Assembly: GCA_001769125.1 (NCBI GenBank)
Contig: MEOG01000020.1
Coordinates: 1-64,000, forward strand
Length of the DNA stretch: 64,000 bases
DNA from: Bacteroidetes bacterium GWF2_35_48
Lineage (GTDB): Bacteria; Bacteroidota; Bacteroidia; Bacteroidales; GWF2-35-48
Direction of reading: 5' to 3'
The position numbers and the translations under genes were made by a program. Positions within the stretch are counted from its first letter, which is position 1. The number at the start of each line of letters is the position of its first letter. A model generated the notes under the pieces. It was not told the origin of the DNA and did no database searches. It saw nothing but the letters and a program-made list of their open reading frames with translations. Positions 6,914 through 14,218 of this stretch are shown one piece after another.

Positions 6914-9226
6914 TCATATAGTCTTTGAGACACTTGCAGGCAACTTTTCTATTGATAACAAAATATTTTCATTCGTTGCGGGGATACAAAAATCTGGTTC
7001 AATTTTATGATTTTTAATTGAAGAAATTGCATCTTTAATTGCTAACCACACGGAAAATGCCAGCATAATAGGTGGCTCTCCAACTGCTTTGCTTTTACGA
7101 ATAGCATTTGGATTTGGATATCCTTTCAGAAGTTCCACGCGAAAATCAGCAGGTATATCTTGTATTGAAGGAATTTTGTACGTATCGGGTGAATGATTGA
7201 GCAAATAACCTTTTGCATCGTACTTCATTTCCTCGGATGTAACCCAGCCCACACCTTGTATAAATGCGCCTTCTACTTGTCCTTTGTCAATATTCGGAAT
7301 AATAGATTCTCCCACATCGTGCAAAATATCGGAACGCAACAATTGAACCCTGCCTGTTAAAATATCTACCTGAACTTCACTTACAGCCATTCCGAATGCA
7401 AAGTAATGAAAGGGTTTTCCTTTCCCTGTAGCTCTGTCGAAATGGATGTCAGGGGTTTTATAAAAACCTGTAGCACTCATGCTCACTTGCTGTATGTATG
7501 CAAGAGAAACCAATTGCAGAAACGACATTTTGCGATCCGGATTTTGTGAATCGTACACTACATTATTTTCAAATACAATTGCTTTTTCGTCTGTTGGAGG
7601 GACATTATTTTTTCTCAATTCTTTTGCAGCAACAGGAATCAAGCGGTATTTCAGCTTTTCAATGGCATCTTTTACTGCCGCTCCATTCAGGTCTGACCCA
7701 GAAGAAGCCGCTGTAGCAGATGTGTTTGGTACTTTCGATGTATTCGTTGCATTCACTTTTATCTTATCAATACTCACACCCATTTCGAGTGCTGCTATTT
7801 GTTGTATCTTTGTATTGAGTCCTTGTCCCATTTCTGAGCCGCCATGATTTACAAGAAGTGTTCCGTCAGTATAAATATTTACCAAAGCACCTGCCTGATT
7901 TAGAAATGATGAGGTAAATGAAATACCGAATTTCACAGGAGTTAACGCAATTCCTTTTTTATAAAATTCATTTTCATTATTGAATTTTTCAATATCTTTT
8001 TTTCTTTTTTCGTAAGAAGAAGAATTCATCAATTGCTCCCACAAAACATAGAGGCGGTTATTTTCTACGGTCTGTCCATAAGGTGTAGTATTGCGTTCAT
8101 TGAGTCCGTAAAAATTTTTATAACGAATTTCTGCTGCATCTTTTTTAAGAATACGTGCAATTTTATCTATGATTGTTTCTACACAAGCCATCCCCTGAGG
8201 CCCACCAAAGCCACGAAATGCGACATTCGATGGCAGGTTCGTTTTCATTGCTTTACCAATGATGCGCATGTTTGGAATGAAGTACGAATTCTCAGCATGA
8301 AGCATCGCGCGTTCGAGAATGGCCATACTTAAATCGCTTGCATAACCACCATTTGCATAATGCAGCACATCTATTGCGAGAATTTTTCCATCATTATCAA
8401 ATCCTGCTTTGTATTTGAACAAAAAAGGATGGCGTTTGCCTGTTATGAGCTGATCTTCGTCGCGCTGCAAACGAACTTTTACAGGTCTTTTTGTATGATG
8501 AACAAGCAGAGCAGCCCATGCTGCAAGATGATTTCCCTGTGTTTCTTTTCCTCCAAAAGCGCCACCCATTCTGCGCATTTCAACTTCAACTTCATTTTTT
8601 TGCACACCCAGAACCTCTGCAATAATTGCTTGTGTTTCCATGGGGTTTTGCGTGGAGCTGTATGCTTTGATGTCATTCCCTTCTCCGGGAACACACAAGC
8701 AGATTTGTGTTTCGAGGTACCAATGCTCCTGACCCCCTGTGATTAATTCTCCCTCAAGAATATGAGGCACATTTTTAAAAGCTTCTTCTACATTTCCACA
8801 TTCAATTTTTCGCTCGGGTTGTAAAAGCATGTTTTTTTCAATTGATTCTTCAATCGTAACAACAGCAGGGAGAATTTCATACTCAATTTTTATTACTTTT
8901 TTTGCTTCAAGCGCAGCTTCTTCACTTTCTGCAGCAATAAGAAAAACAGCCTGTCCGATACATTCCACCTTTTCAAAAGCAAGCGCCGGCTCATCGTGAA
9001 ACACAGGCCCCATATTGTTGTGTCCGGGAATATCTTTATGCGATAAAATTGCATGTACACCCTTAACTTTTTTTGCTTCTTCCAAATCAAAAGAAATAAT
9101 TCGTGCATGTGCATGCGGACTGGTGTAAACAAATCCGTGCAAAAGCTGATCATTGATTTGAATATCGTCAATATAAACCGCTTCGCCGGTTACGTGGTAT
9201 TTTGCGCTTTCGTGATAGGTGGTCAT
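6914..9226 (-). CDS. xdhB: Xanthine dehydrogenase, molybdenum-binding subunit
   Basis: A 770-residue molybdopterin-binding large subunit of a xanthine dehydrogenase, which oxidises hypoxanthine and xanthine to urate. Motifs in order: VTGEAVYIDDI at the N-terminus, RMGGAFGGKETQ (cofactor contact), FRGFGGPQG (substrate-site Arg region), HGGSEMGQGLNTK and AVGEPPIML, which carries the catalytic Glu. This set fits xanthine dehydrogenase better than aldehyde or CO dehydrogenases. It is the last gene of an operon xdhC-(DUF2283)-xdhA-xdhB, 86 bp after xdhA. The Fe-S and FAD sites lie on XdhA, giving the bacterial two-subunit arrangement. Confidence 0.95.
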   Translation of the reverse strand: MTTYHESAKYHVTGEAVYIDDIQINDQLLHGFVYTSPHAHARIISFDLEEAKKVKGVHAILSHKDIPGHNNMGPVFHDEPALAFEKVECIGQAVFLIAAESEEAALEAKKVIKIEYEILPAVVTIEESIEKNMLLQPERKIECGNVEEAFKNVPHILEGELITGGQEHWYLETQICLCVPGEGNDIKAYSSTQNPMETQAIIAEVLGVQKNEVEVEMRRMGGAFGGKETQGNHLAAWAALLVHHTKRPVKVRLQRDEDQLITGKRHPFLFKYKAGFDNDGKILAIDVLHYANGGYASDLSMAILERAMLHAENSYFIPNMRIIGKAMKTNLPSNVAFRGFGGPQGMACVETIIDKIARILKKDAAEIRYKNFYGLNERNTTPYGQTVENNRLYVLWEQLMNSSSYEKRKKDIEKFNNENEFYKKGIALTPVKFGISFTSSFLNQAGALVNIYTDGTLLVNHGGSEMGQGLNTKIQQIAALEMGVSIDKIKVNATNTSKVPNTSATAASSGSDLNGAAVKDAIEKLKYRLIPVAAKELRKNNVPPTDEKAIVFENNVVYDSQNPDRKMSFLQLVSLAYIQQVSMSATGFYKTPDIHFDRATGKGKPFHYFAFGMAVSEVQVDILTGRVQLLRSDILHDVGESIIPNIDKGQVEGAFIQGVGWVTSEEMKYDAKGYLLNHSPDTYKIPSIQDIPADFRVELLKGYPNPNAIRKSKAVGEPPIMLAFSVWLAIKDAISSIKNHKIEPDFCIPATNENILLSIEKLPASVSKTI

Positions 9227-9312: not shown

Positions 9313-10737
9313 TTATTTTGTTTCGCTCCAAAATTTCAGTAAAAGATTTCTTGCCATTATTTTACGGGCATCTGCACCTGAACGGGCATCTGAGATAGGT
9401 GTGAATTCTTCATCAATCAGGGTCATGGTCTGCTCCACATGCTCCCTTGTCCATTCTTTACCGAGCAAATAATTTTCTGCTTTTGCAGCACATTTTGTAA
9501 GTGCAGCCATTCCTCCGTAATATAAGGCAATCTCTTTTACAATTCCACTTTCAATCTTTAATCTGAATCCTGCGCTGACAGTAGAAATATCCATATCTTT
9601 CCGCTTGGATACCTTATACGATTTCACAATAGTTCCTTCGGATAATTTCGGAATAATTACAGAGGTAATCAATTCGTCGTTTTTTAATTGTGTAGTACGA
9701 TACGACACTACAAATTCCCGCAGTTTTATTTCACGGCTGGAACTTGCATTTTCCACACAAACACTTGCATCGTAGGCCATCAGTACCGGAGGCGTATCTC
9801 CAATGGGAGAAGCAGAACCGATATTTCCACCCAGCGTGGCTTTATTTCTTATCTGTTTTGAACCAAAAACACTCAGCATTTCATACAAGGCAGGAAATAT
9901 TTTTTTGCTTTTCATGCGCACATCTTCCATGCAAGCACCACTGCCAAAAATTACAGCATCAGACTTTGTTTGTATTTTCTTTAGTCCCGCAATATGAGAT
10001 AGATCAAGCAGCATGGGTAAAAATTCTTTTTTCTTTGTAACACGCAGCGCAATATCTGTAGCGCCATTTATTACTAATGCATCAGGATATTTTGCTTTAA
10101 GACTTAATGCCTTTGCTTTGGTAAAAGGAATAAAATAATTTTGTTTTCCTGTATTGAGAGAAATAGCAGTTTTCGTATTTATGCATTCAAGCATTTTGAT
10201 TATTTCAGGCTCTTCTTCAGAAAATTTATCTTTTCCCTCCAACTTGCAGGCGCGCTGGGTGGCTTCAATTATGGGTCTGTAACCGGTACAACGGCATAAA
10301 TTACCTGTAAGCGCATCATTTATTTCAGCAAGCGTAGGTTTCTTGAATTGCTTGAAAACGGCAAACATGCTCATCACAAAACCGGGAGTGCAAAACCCAC
10401 ACTGGCTGCCATCTGTTTCTATCATTGCCTGCTGAACGGGGTGCAAATTTGTTGAATTTCCAAGGTTTTCAACTGTCAGAAGCTGCTTGCCGTGGAGCAT
10501 TGGAAGAAAGATGATACAACTGTCATAAGCGCGGTATTCCAATTTTCCGTTTTTATTTTCAGCAATAACTACAGTACAAGCACCACAATCGCCTTCGGCA
10601 CAACCTTCTTTTACTCCTTTATGCCCGGACAGACTGCGAAGGTATTGAAGTACGGTTGTTGTGGGCGTATACACAGAATTTGAAAAATCTATTTCCGTTA
10701 ATTTGTTTCCTAAAAGGAATGTAATTTTTTGTGACAT
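9313..10737 (-). CDS. xdhA: Xanthine dehydrogenase small subunit, [2Fe-2S] and FAD binding
   Basis: A 474-residue electron-transfer subunit. Residues about 1-170 hold two [2Fe-2S] sites: EGCAEGDCGACTV (plant-type) and CGFCTPGFVMSM plus GNLCRCTGYRP (helical). About 195-370 is the FAD domain (INGATDIALRV, TLGGNIGSASPIGDTPP) and about 375-470 the CO-dehydrogenase flavoprotein C-terminal domain. This matches the bacterial XdhA layout and length. It passes electrons from the Mo centre in XdhB through Fe-S to FAD and then to NAD. It lies upstream of xdhB and downstream of the xdhC/DUF2283 region on the same strand. Confidence 0.95.
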   Translation of the reverse strand: MSQKITFLLGNKLTEIDFSNSVYTPTTTVLQYLRSLSGHKGVKEGCAEGDCGACTVVIAENKNGKLEYRAYDSCIIFLPMLHGKQLLTVENLGNSTNLHPVQQAMIETDGSQCGFCTPGFVMSMFAVFKQFKKPTLAEINDALTGNLCRCTGYRPIIEATQRACKLEGKDKFSEEEPEIIKMLECINTKTAISLNTGKQNYFIPFTKAKALSLKAKYPDALVINGATDIALRVTKKKEFLPMLLDLSHIAGLKKIQTKSDAVIFGSGACMEDVRMKSKKIFPALYEMLSVFGSKQIRNKATLGGNIGSASPIGDTPPVLMAYDASVCVENASSSREIKLREFVVSYRTTQLKNDELITSVIIPKLSEGTIVKSYKVSKRKDMDISTVSAGFRLKIESGIVKEIALYYGGMAALTKCAAKAENYLLGKEWTREHVEQTMTLIDEEFTPISDARSGADARKIMARNLLLKFWSETK

Positions 10738-10751
10738 AGGGTTTATTTTTG

Positions 10752-10795
10752 ACGGTATTGTAGAATCGCTCCATGGAGCGATTTTACATTACCGT
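10752..10795. repeat. Palindromic element, family B (upstream of xdhA)
   Basis: A 44-bp palindrome with core AATCGCTCCATGGAGCGATT and ends ACGGTA / TACCGT, with a few mismatches. It is nearly identical to 11163-11205 and part of a larger direct duplication covering the 3' end of xdhC. Confidence 0.85.
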
Positions 10796-10867
10796 ATTAT
10801 ATTTCTAACATCAATTAATTTCGCCAGTATGCTGACCGCAATCTCTTGTGACTTTTCAGCAATAAAT
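10796..10867 (-). pseudogene. Duplicated 3' fragment of xdhC
   Basis: Read on the minus strand this encodes KFIAEKSQEIAVSILAKLI and then DVRNIIR followed by a stop inside the adjacent palindrome. It matches the true XdhC C-terminus at 11199-11280 (FAAETPQEIAVSILAKLI, DVRNTLR). There is no start codon and it follows directly after the DUF2283 stop, so it is a non-coding remnant. With the adjacent palindrome it forms a direct repeat of about 115 bp, 411 bp away from its parent. Confidence 0.85.
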
Positions 10868-11062
10868 TTATGCTACTTCGTATTCAAATTTTGCAGGATT
10901 TCCTGTTTGCTTTGAAGCATTAAGAATTTCAATGCCAACAATAGAACCGTTTTCAGCATAGTCAATTATAATTCCCGGTTTGTCTTCACTGCTATCATGG
11001 ATTTCTGATTCACTAAATCGGATATACAATACATCAACTTCTTTGTCATACTTTATTTTCAT
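10868..11062 (-). CDS. DUF2283 domain-containing small protein
   Basis: A 64-residue protein starting MKIKYDKEVDVLYIRFSE, with GIIIDYAENGSIVGIEILNAS in the middle, the hallmark of the DUF2283 family. No function is established for that family. It interrupts the xdh gene order and is bracketed by two copies of the xdhC 3' end plus palindrome, which suggests it arrived by insertion or recombination. It is on the same strand as xdhC and xdhA, so it is probably transcribed with them. A role in purine oxidation is not implied. Confidence 0.85.
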   Translation of the reverse strand: MKIKYDKEVDVLYIRFSESEIHDSSEDKPGIIIDYAENGSIVGIEILNASKQTGNPAKFEYEVA

Positions 11063-11162
11063 AGTATTTTTCGATTTTTGACGTTTTATAAACTGTAATT
11101 ATTTTTTTTATCTCTGTATTCACAAAAACCCTTATTAAATATTTTAGTTCTTGTGTTTCTAC

Positions 11163-11205
11163 CGGTATTGTAGAATCGCTCCATGGAGCGATTTTACATT
11201 ACCGT
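11163..11205. repeat. Palindromic element, family B (overlaps the xdhC stop)
   Basis: A near copy of the 10752-10795 palindrome with core AATCGCTCCATGGAGCGATT. Its end supplies the last codon and the stop (11199-11201) of xdhC, so the element was inserted at, or has been captured as, the gene's 3' end. Confidence 0.85.
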
Positions 11206-11963
11206 AGTGTATTTCTAACATCAATTAATTTCGCCAGTATGCTGACCGCAATCTCCTGTGGTGTTTCAGCTGCAAATTTAATCCCAATGGGCATATCAAT
11301 TTTTTCAATTTCTTCGGGTGTCAAAATTTTTTCATCATTCAGCATTTTTTTTACTTCTGCTACTTTGCGCTTACTGCCAATCATCCCAAGATAGGCATGC
11401 TCTTTTTTACATGCTAATTTTAATATATCAAAATCGTGCATGTGGTTATAGGTAACAATTACTATAAACGTTTTTCTGTCAAATTTTATATTGTCAAGAA
11501 TTTCTTTGTAATCTTTGTTGATACAAGCACATTTAATTTCAGAAAAATCATTAAATACATCAATTCTCTCATCTATGACGGTAACATCAAATCCCAACTC
11601 AACACTAAACTTTGCGAGGGCTTTTCCAATATGACCTGCTCCAAATATATGCAAAGGAATTTTTCGGGAAACAGGCTCAATATAAACTTCCATATTGCCA
11701 CCGCACTCCATGGCAAGATCTTTTTTTAGGTCGTACTTCAGCAAAACAGGAGCTTTGGACAATATTACTTTTTGGGCTTCTTCAATAACTGTTTTTTCTA
11801 TTGTTCCTCCACCAACCGTTCCGATTATTGTTCCGGTTTCTGTTACGATCATTTTGGAACTGCTTTTACGCGGAGAGGAACCAAATGTTTCCACAACAAT
11901 ACAGAAAGCTGCATTGATATTATCATTCTCCAGATCTGCCAGATGTTGAAATATTGATTTCAT
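11199..11963 (-). CDS. xdhC: XdhC/CoxI-family molybdenum cofactor insertion factor
   Basis: A 254-residue XdhC protein, which binds the molybdenum cofactor, promotes its sulfuration and delivers it to XdhB. The N-terminal part has ETFGSSPRKSSSKMIV and GTVGGGTIE (about residues 25-60). The C-terminal Rossmann domain has LHIFGAGHIGKALAKF and YLGMIGSKRKV. A longer frame reaches 12089, but the ATG at 11961-11963 gives the family start MKSIFQHL and lies 23 bases below a TATATTTG box, so it is preferred. It is the first gene of the xdh operon. Its stop lies inside a palindromic repeat. Confidence 0.92.
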   Translation of the reverse strand: MKSIFQHLADLENDNINAAFCIVVETFGSSPRKSSSKMIVTETGTIIGTVGGGTIEKTVIEEAQKVILSKAPVLLKYDLKKDLAMECGGNMEVYIEPVSRKIPLHIFGAGHIGKALAKFSVELGFDVTVIDERIDVFNDFSEIKCACINKDYKEILDNIKFDRKTFIVIVTYNHMHDFDILKLACKKEHAYLGMIGSKRKVAEVKKMLNDEKILTPEEIEKIDMPIGIKFAAETPQEIAVSILAKLIDVRNTLR

Positions 11964-11986
11964 TTTTATGAATTTTGTTGCAATCA

Positions 11987-11994
11987 CAAATATA
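11987..11994 (-). promoter_or_regulatory. -7 box for xdhC
   Basis: TATATTTG on the minus strand matches TAnnTTTG and lies 23 bases upstream of the xdhC ATG at 11963. No clear -33 TTTG was found at the right spacing. Confidence 0.45.
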
Positions 11995-12112
11995 TTATTT
12001 TTTTGTTTAACCGATATGATTTTTATCGCATTGTTTCTAATCTTTGCTGCAATTATTTCTTTATAAATAAATTTTTTCTTTACTTGCATTGATTTTTATA
12101 AAACCTTAAAAA

Positions 12113-14218
12113 ATGAGAAAAATTAATTTTTTTTTAATTCTATGTGCAATGATTGGATTTTCGTGTTCCAATAATGAAACCAAGGATGTTGCGGTTACCG
12201 GAAATCCTTTAATTGACAAACAGGACAACCCTTTTGGGGTGGCTTCTTTTGAAAAGATTAAACCTGAGCACTATCTGCCTGCTTTTGAAGAAGGAATGAA
12301 GCGACAAAATGATGAGATTAATTCTATTATCAACAATAGTGAAATACCAGATTTTAAAAATACTGTTGAGGCATTATTTAACAGTGATGAACTTTTATAT
12401 AATGTAAGTTTGGTATTTGATAATGCAACTTCTGCCAATACGAGCTCTGCATTAGATTCTATTTCAGAAGTCATTAGTCCTCGCCTTGCTAGACATCGGG
12501 ATGAAATATCCATGAATCCAAAATTGTTTGAAAAAATTAAAGCTGTATATGAAAACAAAGCATCTTTTTCTTTAAATGCAGAACAAACATTTTTGATGGA
12601 TAACATATATAAAAGTTTTGTCAGAAACGGCGCACTGCTTGCTCCTGAAAAACAAGCAGAACTTAAAAAAATAAATGAAGAACTTTCAGGTCTGTCAGTT
12701 AAATTTGGTCAAAATCTTTTAGCTGAAACTAATGCATTTAAAATGTTTGTAGATAAAAAAGAAGATCTGGCAGGGCTTCCTGAAGATGTTATCTCCGGTG
12801 CTGCAGAAGCTGCTGAAAAAGATGGAAAAACAGGACAATGGATGTTTACCACTCACAAACCAAGCATGCTCCCTTTTCTTCAGTATGCAAAAAACAGAAG
12901 TCTGCGTGAAAAAATTCTTACAGCATACATGATGCGCGGAAATAATGGAAATTCAAACGATAATAACAAGGTACTTGCAAAAATGGTTACCTTAAGGTAT
13001 CAGAAAGCAGCCTTACTTGGATACAAAAATTATGCTGCATATAAGCTTGAAACCCGTATGGCGAAATCACCTGAGAATGCATTTGAGCTTTTAAATAAAT
13101 TATGGGAGAAATCAATTGCTGTTGCGAAAAAAGATGCAGTTTCTCTTCAGAAATTATTGTCGCAGGATAGTCAGAAAAATACACTGGCAGCTTGGGATTG
13201 GTCGTATTATTCAGAAAAACTCCGCAAAGAAAAATACAATCTTGAAGAAAGCGAAGTGCGTCCCTATTTTAAATTAGAAGATGTTACTACCGGAATATTT
13301 ATGGTTGCAGAAAAACTGTACGGATTAACATTTACAAAAATAGATAATATTTCGTTGCCACATCCTGATGCAATTGCTTATGAAGTTAAAGAAGCGGATG
13401 GAAAGCATCTTGGCGTTTTTTATCTTGACTTTTTTCCACGCGACAGCAAAAGAGGCGGTGCCTGGTGTACAGAATACCGTGGACATCATATCAAAGAGGG
13501 CAAAGAAATAACACCTATTACTTCTGTTGTTTGTAATTTCACAAAGCCCACAAAAGATACTCCATCGCTTTTAAGTATGGATGAAACGGAAACATTGTTT
13601 CATGAGTTTGGTCATGCGCTAGAAAGTCTTATGTCTAAAGTTTCTTACAGAACAACTTTTGTTGCAACAGATTTTGTTGAGCTTCCCAGTCAGGTAATGG
13701 AACATTGGGCGTTTCATAAAGATGTTCTTAAATTGTATGCCAAACATTATAAAACGGGAGAGGTAATACCCGATGTCCTTGTACAAAAAATTAACAACAG
13801 TTCACTTTTTAATCAGGGATTTGGAACTACAGAATACCTTGGGGCATCTCTTCTGGATTTGGAATATCATTCAATTGAAAATAGCAATGATGTTGATGTG
13901 CAGAAATTCGAAAAAGAATTCCTGATAAAAATTGGTCTGATTCCTGAAATTCCGCCACGTTACAGAAGCACTTATTTTTCCCACATCACAGGAGGTTACG
14001 ATGCAGGATATTATAGCTATATCTGGTCTGCAGTACTTGACAATGATGCATTCGATGCGTTTGAAGAAAAAGGTGTTTTTGATAAGTCGGTTGCAGAAAA
14101 ATTCAGAAAAAATATTCTTGAAAAGGACGGTATTGAAGATCCTGTAAACATGTATGTGAATTTCAGAGGGAAAGAGGCTGGTATTGAACCATTATTGAAA
14201 AACAGAGGATTGTTGTAA
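12113..14218 (+). CDS. dcp: M3-family peptidyl-dipeptidase, lipoprotein
   Basis: A 701-residue M3 metallopeptidase. It begins with a lipoprotein signal (MRKINFFLILCAMIGFSC, Cys18 as the lipidated residue), so it should be membrane-anchored rather than cytosolic like E. coli Dcp. The zinc site HEFGHALESLM is present near residue 498, with FVELPSQVMEHW downstream supplying the third ligand, and SHITGGYDAGYYSYIWS near the C-terminus for substrate binding. The enzyme removes C-terminal dipeptides from peptides. It is divergent from xdhC, with about 150 bp between them, and stands alone. A family A repeat follows about 40 bp after the stop. Confidence 0.93.
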   Translation: MRKINFFLILCAMIGFSCSNNETKDVAVTGNPLIDKQDNPFGVASFEKIKPEHYLPAFEEGMKRQNDEINSIINNSEIPDFKNTVEALFNSDELLYNVSLVFDNATSANTSSALDSISEVISPRLARHRDEISMNPKLFEKIKAVYENKASFSLNAEQTFLMDNIYKSFVRNGALLAPEKQAELKKINEELSGLSVKFGQNLLAETNAFKMFVDKKEDLAGLPEDVISGAAEAAEKDGKTGQWMFTTHKPSMLPFLQYAKNRSLREKILTAYMMRGNNGNSNDNNKVLAKMVTLRYQKAALLGYKNYAAYKLETRMAKSPENAFELLNKLWEKSIAVAKKDAVSLQKLLSQDSQKNTLAAWDWSYYSEKLRKEKYNLEESEVRPYFKLEDVTTGIFMVAEKLYGLTFTKIDNISLPHPDAIAYEVKEADGKHLGVFYLDFFPRDSKRGGAWCTEYRGHHIKEGKEITPITSVVCNFTKPTKDTPSLLSMDETETLFHEFGHALESLMSKVSYRTTFVATDFVELPSQVMEHWAFHKDVLKLYAKHYKTGEVIPDVLVQKINNSSLFNQGFGTTEYLGASLLDLEYHSIENSNDVDVQKFEKEFLIKIGLIPEIPPRYRSTYFSHITGGYDAGYYSYIWSAVLDNDAFDAFEEKGVFDKSVAEKFRKNILEKDGIEDPVNMYVNFRGKEAGIEPLLKNRGLL

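Follow-up and report, generated by a model that had tools for sequence, protein, structure and literature searches.

A truncated DUF4258-DUF2283 module, very probably inserted with duplication of the xdhC 3' end, lies between xdhC and xdhA of Bacteroidetes bacterium GWF2_35_48

Organization of the xdhC-xdhA region

The window analyzed in this study is the whole stretch of 64,000 nucleotides from contig MEOG01000020.1 (positions 1 to 64,000). On its minus strand, xdhC is followed by a palindrome, a short stretch, a DUF2283 gene, a second xdhC 3' end, a second palindrome, xdhA, and xdhB, in this order. The features are as follows.

11199 to 12089, minus strand: xdhC (XdhC/CoxI family; PF13478, E = 4e-35; PF02625, E = 3e-19)
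11163 to 11280, minus strand: repeat copy A, the native xdhC 3' end (26 codons and stop) plus palindrome (repeat comparison)
11163 to 11205, no strand: REP-like palindrome copy A, 91% self-complementary
11049 to 11162, minus strand: C-terminal half of a DUF4258 (RelE-like) gene, beginning at the palindrome edge, two residues deleted (profile and alignment)
10868 to 11062, minus strand: DUF2283 gene, 64 residues, intact, in the antitoxin position of the module (PF10049, E = 1.5e-21)
10753 to 10870, minus strand: repeat copy B, a displaced xdhC 3' end without a start (26 codons and stop) plus palindrome
10752 to 10795, no strand: REP-like palindrome copy B, 91% self-complementary
9313 to 10737, minus strand: xdhA-like gene (2Fe-2S and FAD domains; PF01799, PF00941, PF03450), next in the operon
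6914 to 9226, minus strand: xdhB-like molybdopterin subunit (PF02738, PF20256, PF01315)
2097 to 2124, no strand: another member of the palindrome family, the third in the window (CCCC/GGGG variant; pattern search)

A within-window comparison aligns positions 10753 to 10870 with 11163 to 11280 over 118 bp (92.4% identity, E about 1e-45), and an ungapped comparison gives 125 nt at 90% identity with a spacing of 410. The repeat consists of the final 26 codons and the stop codon of xdhC together with the 43-bp palindrome. The first-pass annotation was thus right to describe a DUF2283 gene between two copies of the xdhC end, each with a 43-bp palindrome, whereas its count of about 23 shared codons was too low. 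The last codon and the stop codon of xdhC (CGG TAA) are supplied by the palindrome, and the TAA stop codon of DUF2283 also forms the first three bases of copy B. The palindrome portion is identical in the two copies; nine of the 118 positions differ, and the copies are therefore two distinct sequences and not a single stretch assembled twice. The peptide at the end of copy A, ETPQEIAVSILAKLIDVRNTLR, is similar to the XdhC ends of relatives and retains the ETPxEIA motif, which is present in some of them. In the displaced copy six codons are changed, and five of the six changes alter the residue. Because the motif is kept in copy A and most changed codons of copy B are residue altering, the xdhC-attached copy is taken to be the working one and the displaced copy to be drifting. 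No recombinase-sized open reading frame is present in the 410-bp unit. Recombination between the copies would restore the order xdhC-palindrome-xdhA, and the clean excision proposed in the first-pass annotation is hypothetical and possible in principle.

The DUF4258 fragment and the intact DUF2283 gene

The 100 bp between the palindrome and DUF2283 are not blank; they belong to a DUF4258 gene fragment, the stop codon of which (11046 to 11048) overlaps the start of DUF2283, beginning 14 nt inside that gene. The 38-residue frame VETQELKYLIRVFVNTEIKKIITVYKTSKIEKYYENKV aligns with the second half of the family in 30 intact DUF4258 sequences; in this alignment two residues are missing from it, one of which is a nearly invariant proline. 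A DUF4258 profile built from 31 rows, one of them the window fragment itself, matches the fragment at positions 47 to 86 of 86 (E = 4e-11) and matches nothing else in the genome. An independent profile built from eight other DUF4258 proteins matches it at positions 46 to 85 (E = 2e-12), and Pfam alone gives no score for the 38-residue piece. The toxin-like gene is therefore incomplete, with only profile positions 47 to 86 left; the arrangement of DUF2283 after an overlapping DUF4258 is preserved, overlap included, although DUF4258 is reduced to its C-terminal half. The AF2 model of DUF4258 (pLDDT 88) has a helix-helix-four strands-helix topology, and its best PDB matches are RelE structures, at weak scores (E = 0.12, probability 0.8-0.9). 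The fragment is predicted to be unable to make this fold, as it lacks the two N-terminal helices and two of the four strands.

The genome, the assembly of which is 98% complete, yielded no intact DUF4258 gene, and the DUF2283 gene of the window is thus an orphan; i.e., it is intact and lacks an intact cognate DUF4258, as an orphan antitoxin would, the antitoxin role itself being a prediction. A PF14076 search of the same genome detected a second DUF4258 piece, comprising the N-terminal 25 positions (C140:39545-39619; L114, L115); this piece is cut off by a hairpin array of another kind (GCAGAGC-type) and lies next to Y1-transposase genes.

The DUF2283 protein is 52-72% identical to 41 relatives. 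Other families of the order contain relatives with 59-72% identity across all 64 residues, most of which are preceded by a DUF4258 3' end reaching into the start of DUF2283. It departs from nearly invariant columns at two sites (E23D and D25S). Its model has a pLDDT of 93, and the PDB search found no relatives by sequence and none that are convincing by fold. Taken together, the insert is a toxin-antitoxin-like module truncated in its toxin-like gene. Most likely, the DUF2283 gene is now a relic that may still be expressed together with the xdh genes; conceivably, it could protect against an incoming DUF4258 module.

Comparison with the xdh loci of relatives

We searched 60 genomes, i.e., the genome of the window and 59 others of the same genus or order. 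An XdhC match was found in 20 of them (19 besides the genome itself), and in 8 of these 19 (L026, L027, L028, L030, L031, L033, L034, and L038) an XdhA-type gene directly follows xdhC with neither palindrome nor DUF2283; the other eleven have different neighbors or were not read through. The comparison within the genus covers one other species, whose XdhC is 62% identical, and no closer relative by XdhC was present among the genome contigs searched. The exact 14-base core of the palindrome is absent from all 59 other genomes. The insertion between xdhC and xdhA is the derived state. The comparison of xdh loci suggested in the first-pass annotation thus found the arrangement lacking in these eight relatives, and the opposite case, in which all relatives carry the same arrangement with diverged copies, was looked for among them and not found.

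The REP-like palindrome family

The palindrome core GCTCCNNGGAGC has 17 exact occurrences in the genome, and a 28-base pattern with up to three mismatches detects at least 57 copies (reversed-pattern control, 0). The copies are spread across many contigs, as is expected of REP elements, i.e., dispersed imperfect palindromes in many copies. Stem changes compensate between copies (CTCC/GGAG, TTCC/GGAA, and CCCC/GGGG), and the positions 11th and 16th from the dyad are usually mismatched; in this stem comparison, row L119 duplicates the other window copy. The outer arms of the family are locus specific, yet still partly complementary. A search of RNA families at the palindrome gave nothing close to a gathering score.

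The known features of REP and RAYT-associated palindromes served for comparison. The present family resembles REP elements in its dispersed short imperfect palindromes, compensating stems, GTA..TAC ends, and fixed mismatch positions. It differs in its relation to a cognate RAYT: the genome has 10 Y1-transposase matches, and no core was found within 1.5 kb of any of them. Flanking direct repeats are absent at all 14 other palindrome loci examined. The palindrome as the end of a cassette was ruled out, since it belongs to a dispersed family with 14 other loci free of flanking direct repeats. The earlier picture of DUF2283 as a self-contained cassette with a palindrome end is accordingly abandoned: the palindrome is a dispersed repeat, and the insert is, as far as its alignment indicates, a damaged toxin-antitoxin-like module. 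The broader proposal, an insertion at a gene end with regeneration of that end or after duplication, is in keeping with the empty sites in eight genomes and with the absence of the core from the other 59.

Pairing of DUF4258 with DUF2283

DUF2283 loci were fetched by name (the best 80 of 349), and 76 of them come with 300 bp or more of upstream sequence. In 45 of the 76, DUF2283 is immediately preceded and overlapped by a full DUF4258; in the remainder, DUF4258 is 5'-truncated (10), frameshifted (3), internally deleted (1), full but apart (2), or absent (15). Most loci were picked because DUF2283 was intact, and these counts alone therefore cannot show that DUF2283 outlives DUF4258. From the other direction, all nine strong matches to intact DUF4258 (E below 1e-25; 393 genomes of the order) adjoin DUF2283 matches. 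Among 20 plasmid records with DUF2283, an overlapping DUF4258 is annotated in 4 and a RelE/ParE toxin in 1, and an adjacent DUF4258 is present in at least one more. At one locus (L092, contig 1-925 region), DUF4258 and DUF2283 are fused in a single open frame of 155 codons, a natural toxin-antitoxin-like fusion. At another (L095), a short element with inverted-repeat ends interrupts DUF4258 upstream of a retained DUF2283, at nearly the codon where the DUF4258 fragment of the window starts.

NCBIfam and PADLOC gave no name for DUF2283 or DUF4258 above the cut-off, or none at all. In the open-access literature searched, the name DUF2283 was not found, nor were both DUF names together; PF10049 does occur. 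The available excerpt of PMC11980606 lists DUF4258 among the toxin families of the RelE/ParE superfamily, with unknown activity and the order antitoxin-toxin, and does not mention DUF2283. The gene order observed here, with the toxin-like gene first, is opposite to the one listed in that excerpt. The toxin and antitoxin roles of DUF4258 and DUF2283 are thus putative, resting on family assignment and gene order.

Compared with RelE/ParE type II modules that include DUF4258 (PF14076), the present one is similar in its two short overlapping codirectional genes, an upstream product in PF14076, a predicted RelE-like arrangement, occurrence on plasmids, and scatter across phyla; it is different in its DUF2283 partner, the leading position of the toxin-like gene, and the breakage of that gene in the window. 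As in solitary (orphan) antitoxins, the antitoxin-side gene is retained without a working toxin gene, whereas here the remnant of the toxin gene and the scar left by insertion can still be recognized.

Repeats around other DUF2283 loci

Comparable footprints were observed at several other DUF2283 loci. In Lacihabitans sp. LS3-19 (L210), about the last 20 codons of a 756-residue gene and its terminator lie on both sides of DUF2283 as a 120-bp repeat (88% identity) with exactly two copies in the 5.7-Mb genome; DUF4258 is absent or only a trace. From its C terminus, we take the repeated gene to be aconitase-like. At L262, about the last 46 codons of a gene, presumably relA/spoT-like on our reading, flank an intact DUF4258/DUF2283 module on both sides (139 bp). 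At L154 and L145, an intact module has on either side a copy of a terminator only, which follows a gene that we read as dnaK-like. DUF4258 is intact at L262 and L154, so truncation and gene-end duplication are separable. L154 and L145 possibly derive from one ancestral event. Their terminator copies are more alike within each genome than between genomes, a pattern that suggests independent events or continuing gene conversion. L280 is a seeming mirror case: the downstream gene has a second copy of its 5' end (MIQP...), and DUF4258 seems to take its start from the upstream copy.

Taking a local score of at least 18 as a bracketing direct repeat, 13 of 65 named and 12 of 53 unnamed DUF2283 loci are bracketed (three loci are common to both sets: L094 = L194, L093 = L178, and L091 = L173). 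The corresponding values are 0/1300 and 1/1060 for mixed-locus pairs and 8/347 and 4/100 for shifted intervals at the same loci; an earlier version of the test gave 10/60 versus 4/104. Other small genes are bracketed in 9 of 86 cases in the same loci and in 18 of 174 cases in 0.8 Mb of the own genome plus the window, the latter count leaving out the case of the window itself. Against these, 13/65 gives Fisher p values of 0.11 (same loci) and 0.05 (own genome), and at a score of at least 40 the comparison is 7/65 versus 3/86 (p = 0.10) and 4/174 (p = 0.01). Bracketing repeats are thus common around small genes, and part of the DUF2283 signal is background. A strong general enrichment at DUF2283, initially considered, shrank to about twofold against other small genes; these controls are ORF calls, some of which are probably spurious and inside repeats, which would raise the control rate. 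Several bracketing repeats were set aside as plainly dispersed or of low complexity (L178, L194, L136, L169, L170, L258, and L112), as a probable tandem pair of DUF2283 genes (L196), or as probably two T9SS-type gene ends (L140).

A downstream copy of the gene end was found at 7 of 503 gene ends of the own genome: xdhC, two paralogous cases (L240), three that lie beyond the gene or scarcely reach into it (L224, L242, and one at L232), and one partial match, probably dispersed (also L232). The L240 pair (11072-13932) consists of tandem paralogues with near-identical 3' ends, probably by gene conversion, which we take to be RhuM-like. Gene-end duplication occurs at 4 of 115 DUF2283 loci versus 2 of 502 gene ends (p = 0.013), a comparison that is descriptive only, because the criterion was set post hoc, L145 and L154 may represent one event, and the baseline cases are paralogues (L240). 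Given that the excess of bracketing repeats over other small genes is no more than about twofold, the recurrence elsewhere of the footprint, i.e., a gene 3' end duplicated around a DUF4258/DUF2283 module, is suggestive.

Origin of the arrangement

The module has been reduced to the complete DUF2283 gene and the final 38 codons of its toxin-like partner. Its first junction is at the palindrome foot, within the DUF4258 frame, and it ends on the TAA common to DUF2283 and the repeat. That a truncated module was inserted together with a gene-end duplication is very probable, and a DUF4258-DUF2283 module, or a piece of one, likely entered the xdhC-xdhA gap at the REP-like hairpin on the xdhC stop codon. 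As the route, we tentatively suggest a replication-type template switch, which, read from this one strain, has somewhat less than an even chance of being correct. Synthesis would leave xdhC at the foot of the hairpin and copy part of a module located elsewhere, entering inside DUF4258 and exiting just past the stop codon of DUF2283, the TAA of which is shared with xdhC. It would then re-enter xdhC about 118 bp upstream and recopy the xdhC end and the hairpin. xdhC would stay whole, the displaced copy of its end would be dead DNA free to drift, and DUF2283 would be left as an orphan antitoxin-like gene, probably a relic, that could possibly bind an incoming DUF4258 toxin. A single template switch would give exactly these junctions and would account for the cut on the 5' side of the toxin-like gene. 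Against this route, microhomology at the junctions amounts to only 3-7 bp, template switching has no unique signature, and no intermediate was seen in any sequence examined.

The same structure could arise in two steps, in which slippage at the hairpin doubles the xdhC end and the palindrome and a module fragment is later inserted illegitimately. Palindromes promote slippage, and this genome is rich in repeats, both dispersed and tandem. We nevertheless consider a prior tandem duplication somewhat unlikely: it requires two events with coincident borders (the hairpin edge and the first base of the second copy), the coincidence would be needed again at L210 and L262, and among the 503 gene ends of the genome no other nonparalogous coding end is duplicated downstream, except for the partial L232 match. 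Integration of DNA from a related strain, in which the module was already joined to an xdhC end and only one side recombined by homology while the other joined illegitimately, would naturally produce direct repeats, and the 8% difference between the copies is what a donor allele might show. Five of six changed codons of the displaced copy are residue altering, which resembles drift and not a functional donor allele; the explanation also merely shifts the origin to the donor, and we regard it as distinctly unlikely.

Movement of DUF4258-DUF2283 modules to gene-end hairpins by a dedicated recombinase or REP transposase is suggested by the REP-like palindrome at the junction, the 10 Y1-transposase matches, and the terminator or gene-end repeats beside several modules. 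The sequence, length, and boundaries of the repeats differ at each site with no common end sequence, the palindrome is missing from the Y1-transposase loci, and flanking direct repeats are missing from all 14 other palindrome loci examined, all of which makes such a mobile cassette very unlikely. The genome is a draft of 142 contigs, as an assembly artefact might call for; with an E value of about 1e-45, nine differing sites, and both copies inside a 67-kb contig, the probability of an artefact or of chance similarity is negligible.

Relation to known systems and implications

Orphan antitoxins, REP elements, and the insertion of toxin-antitoxin modules between adjacent genes are known kinds. 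The chromosomal ccd(O157) of E. coli lies between folA and apaH (PMC7167474, PMC7232551); it is similar to the present case in that a module stands between otherwise adjacent genes with REP sequences at the site and signs of decay, and it is different in that a gene-end duplication is not stated in the available excerpts of these papers. A search of the open-access literature returned no fitting prior report of gene-end duplications around toxin-antitoxin modules. As far as our searches go, two elements are new: the pairing of DUF4258 with DUF2283, in which the toxin side is frequently lost, and a recurring scar in the form of a duplicated gene end.

The DUF2283 family thereby gains a clear partner, DUF4258. 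Where a duplicated gene end surrounds a module, the duplication is a scar that can be dated and from which the entry point and the breakpoints in the donor can be read; it bears on the integration route of toxin-antitoxin modules, which the available excerpt of a 2020 review calls unelucidated (PMC7167474). The scar recurs in about three unrelated places besides the window, and systematic search and testing are therefore feasible. More generally, DUF4258-DUF2283 modules, and perhaps toxin-antitoxin modules as a whole, might enter without a recombinase at gene-end hairpins or terminators and leave a gene-end duplication of 40-140 bp, a generalization that we offer as speculation and consider unlikely. 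If it were true, the host gene and its terminator would be rebuilt on the near side with a dead copy on the far side, the window would hold one such scar, and scars of this kind would provide a general way to find integrations.
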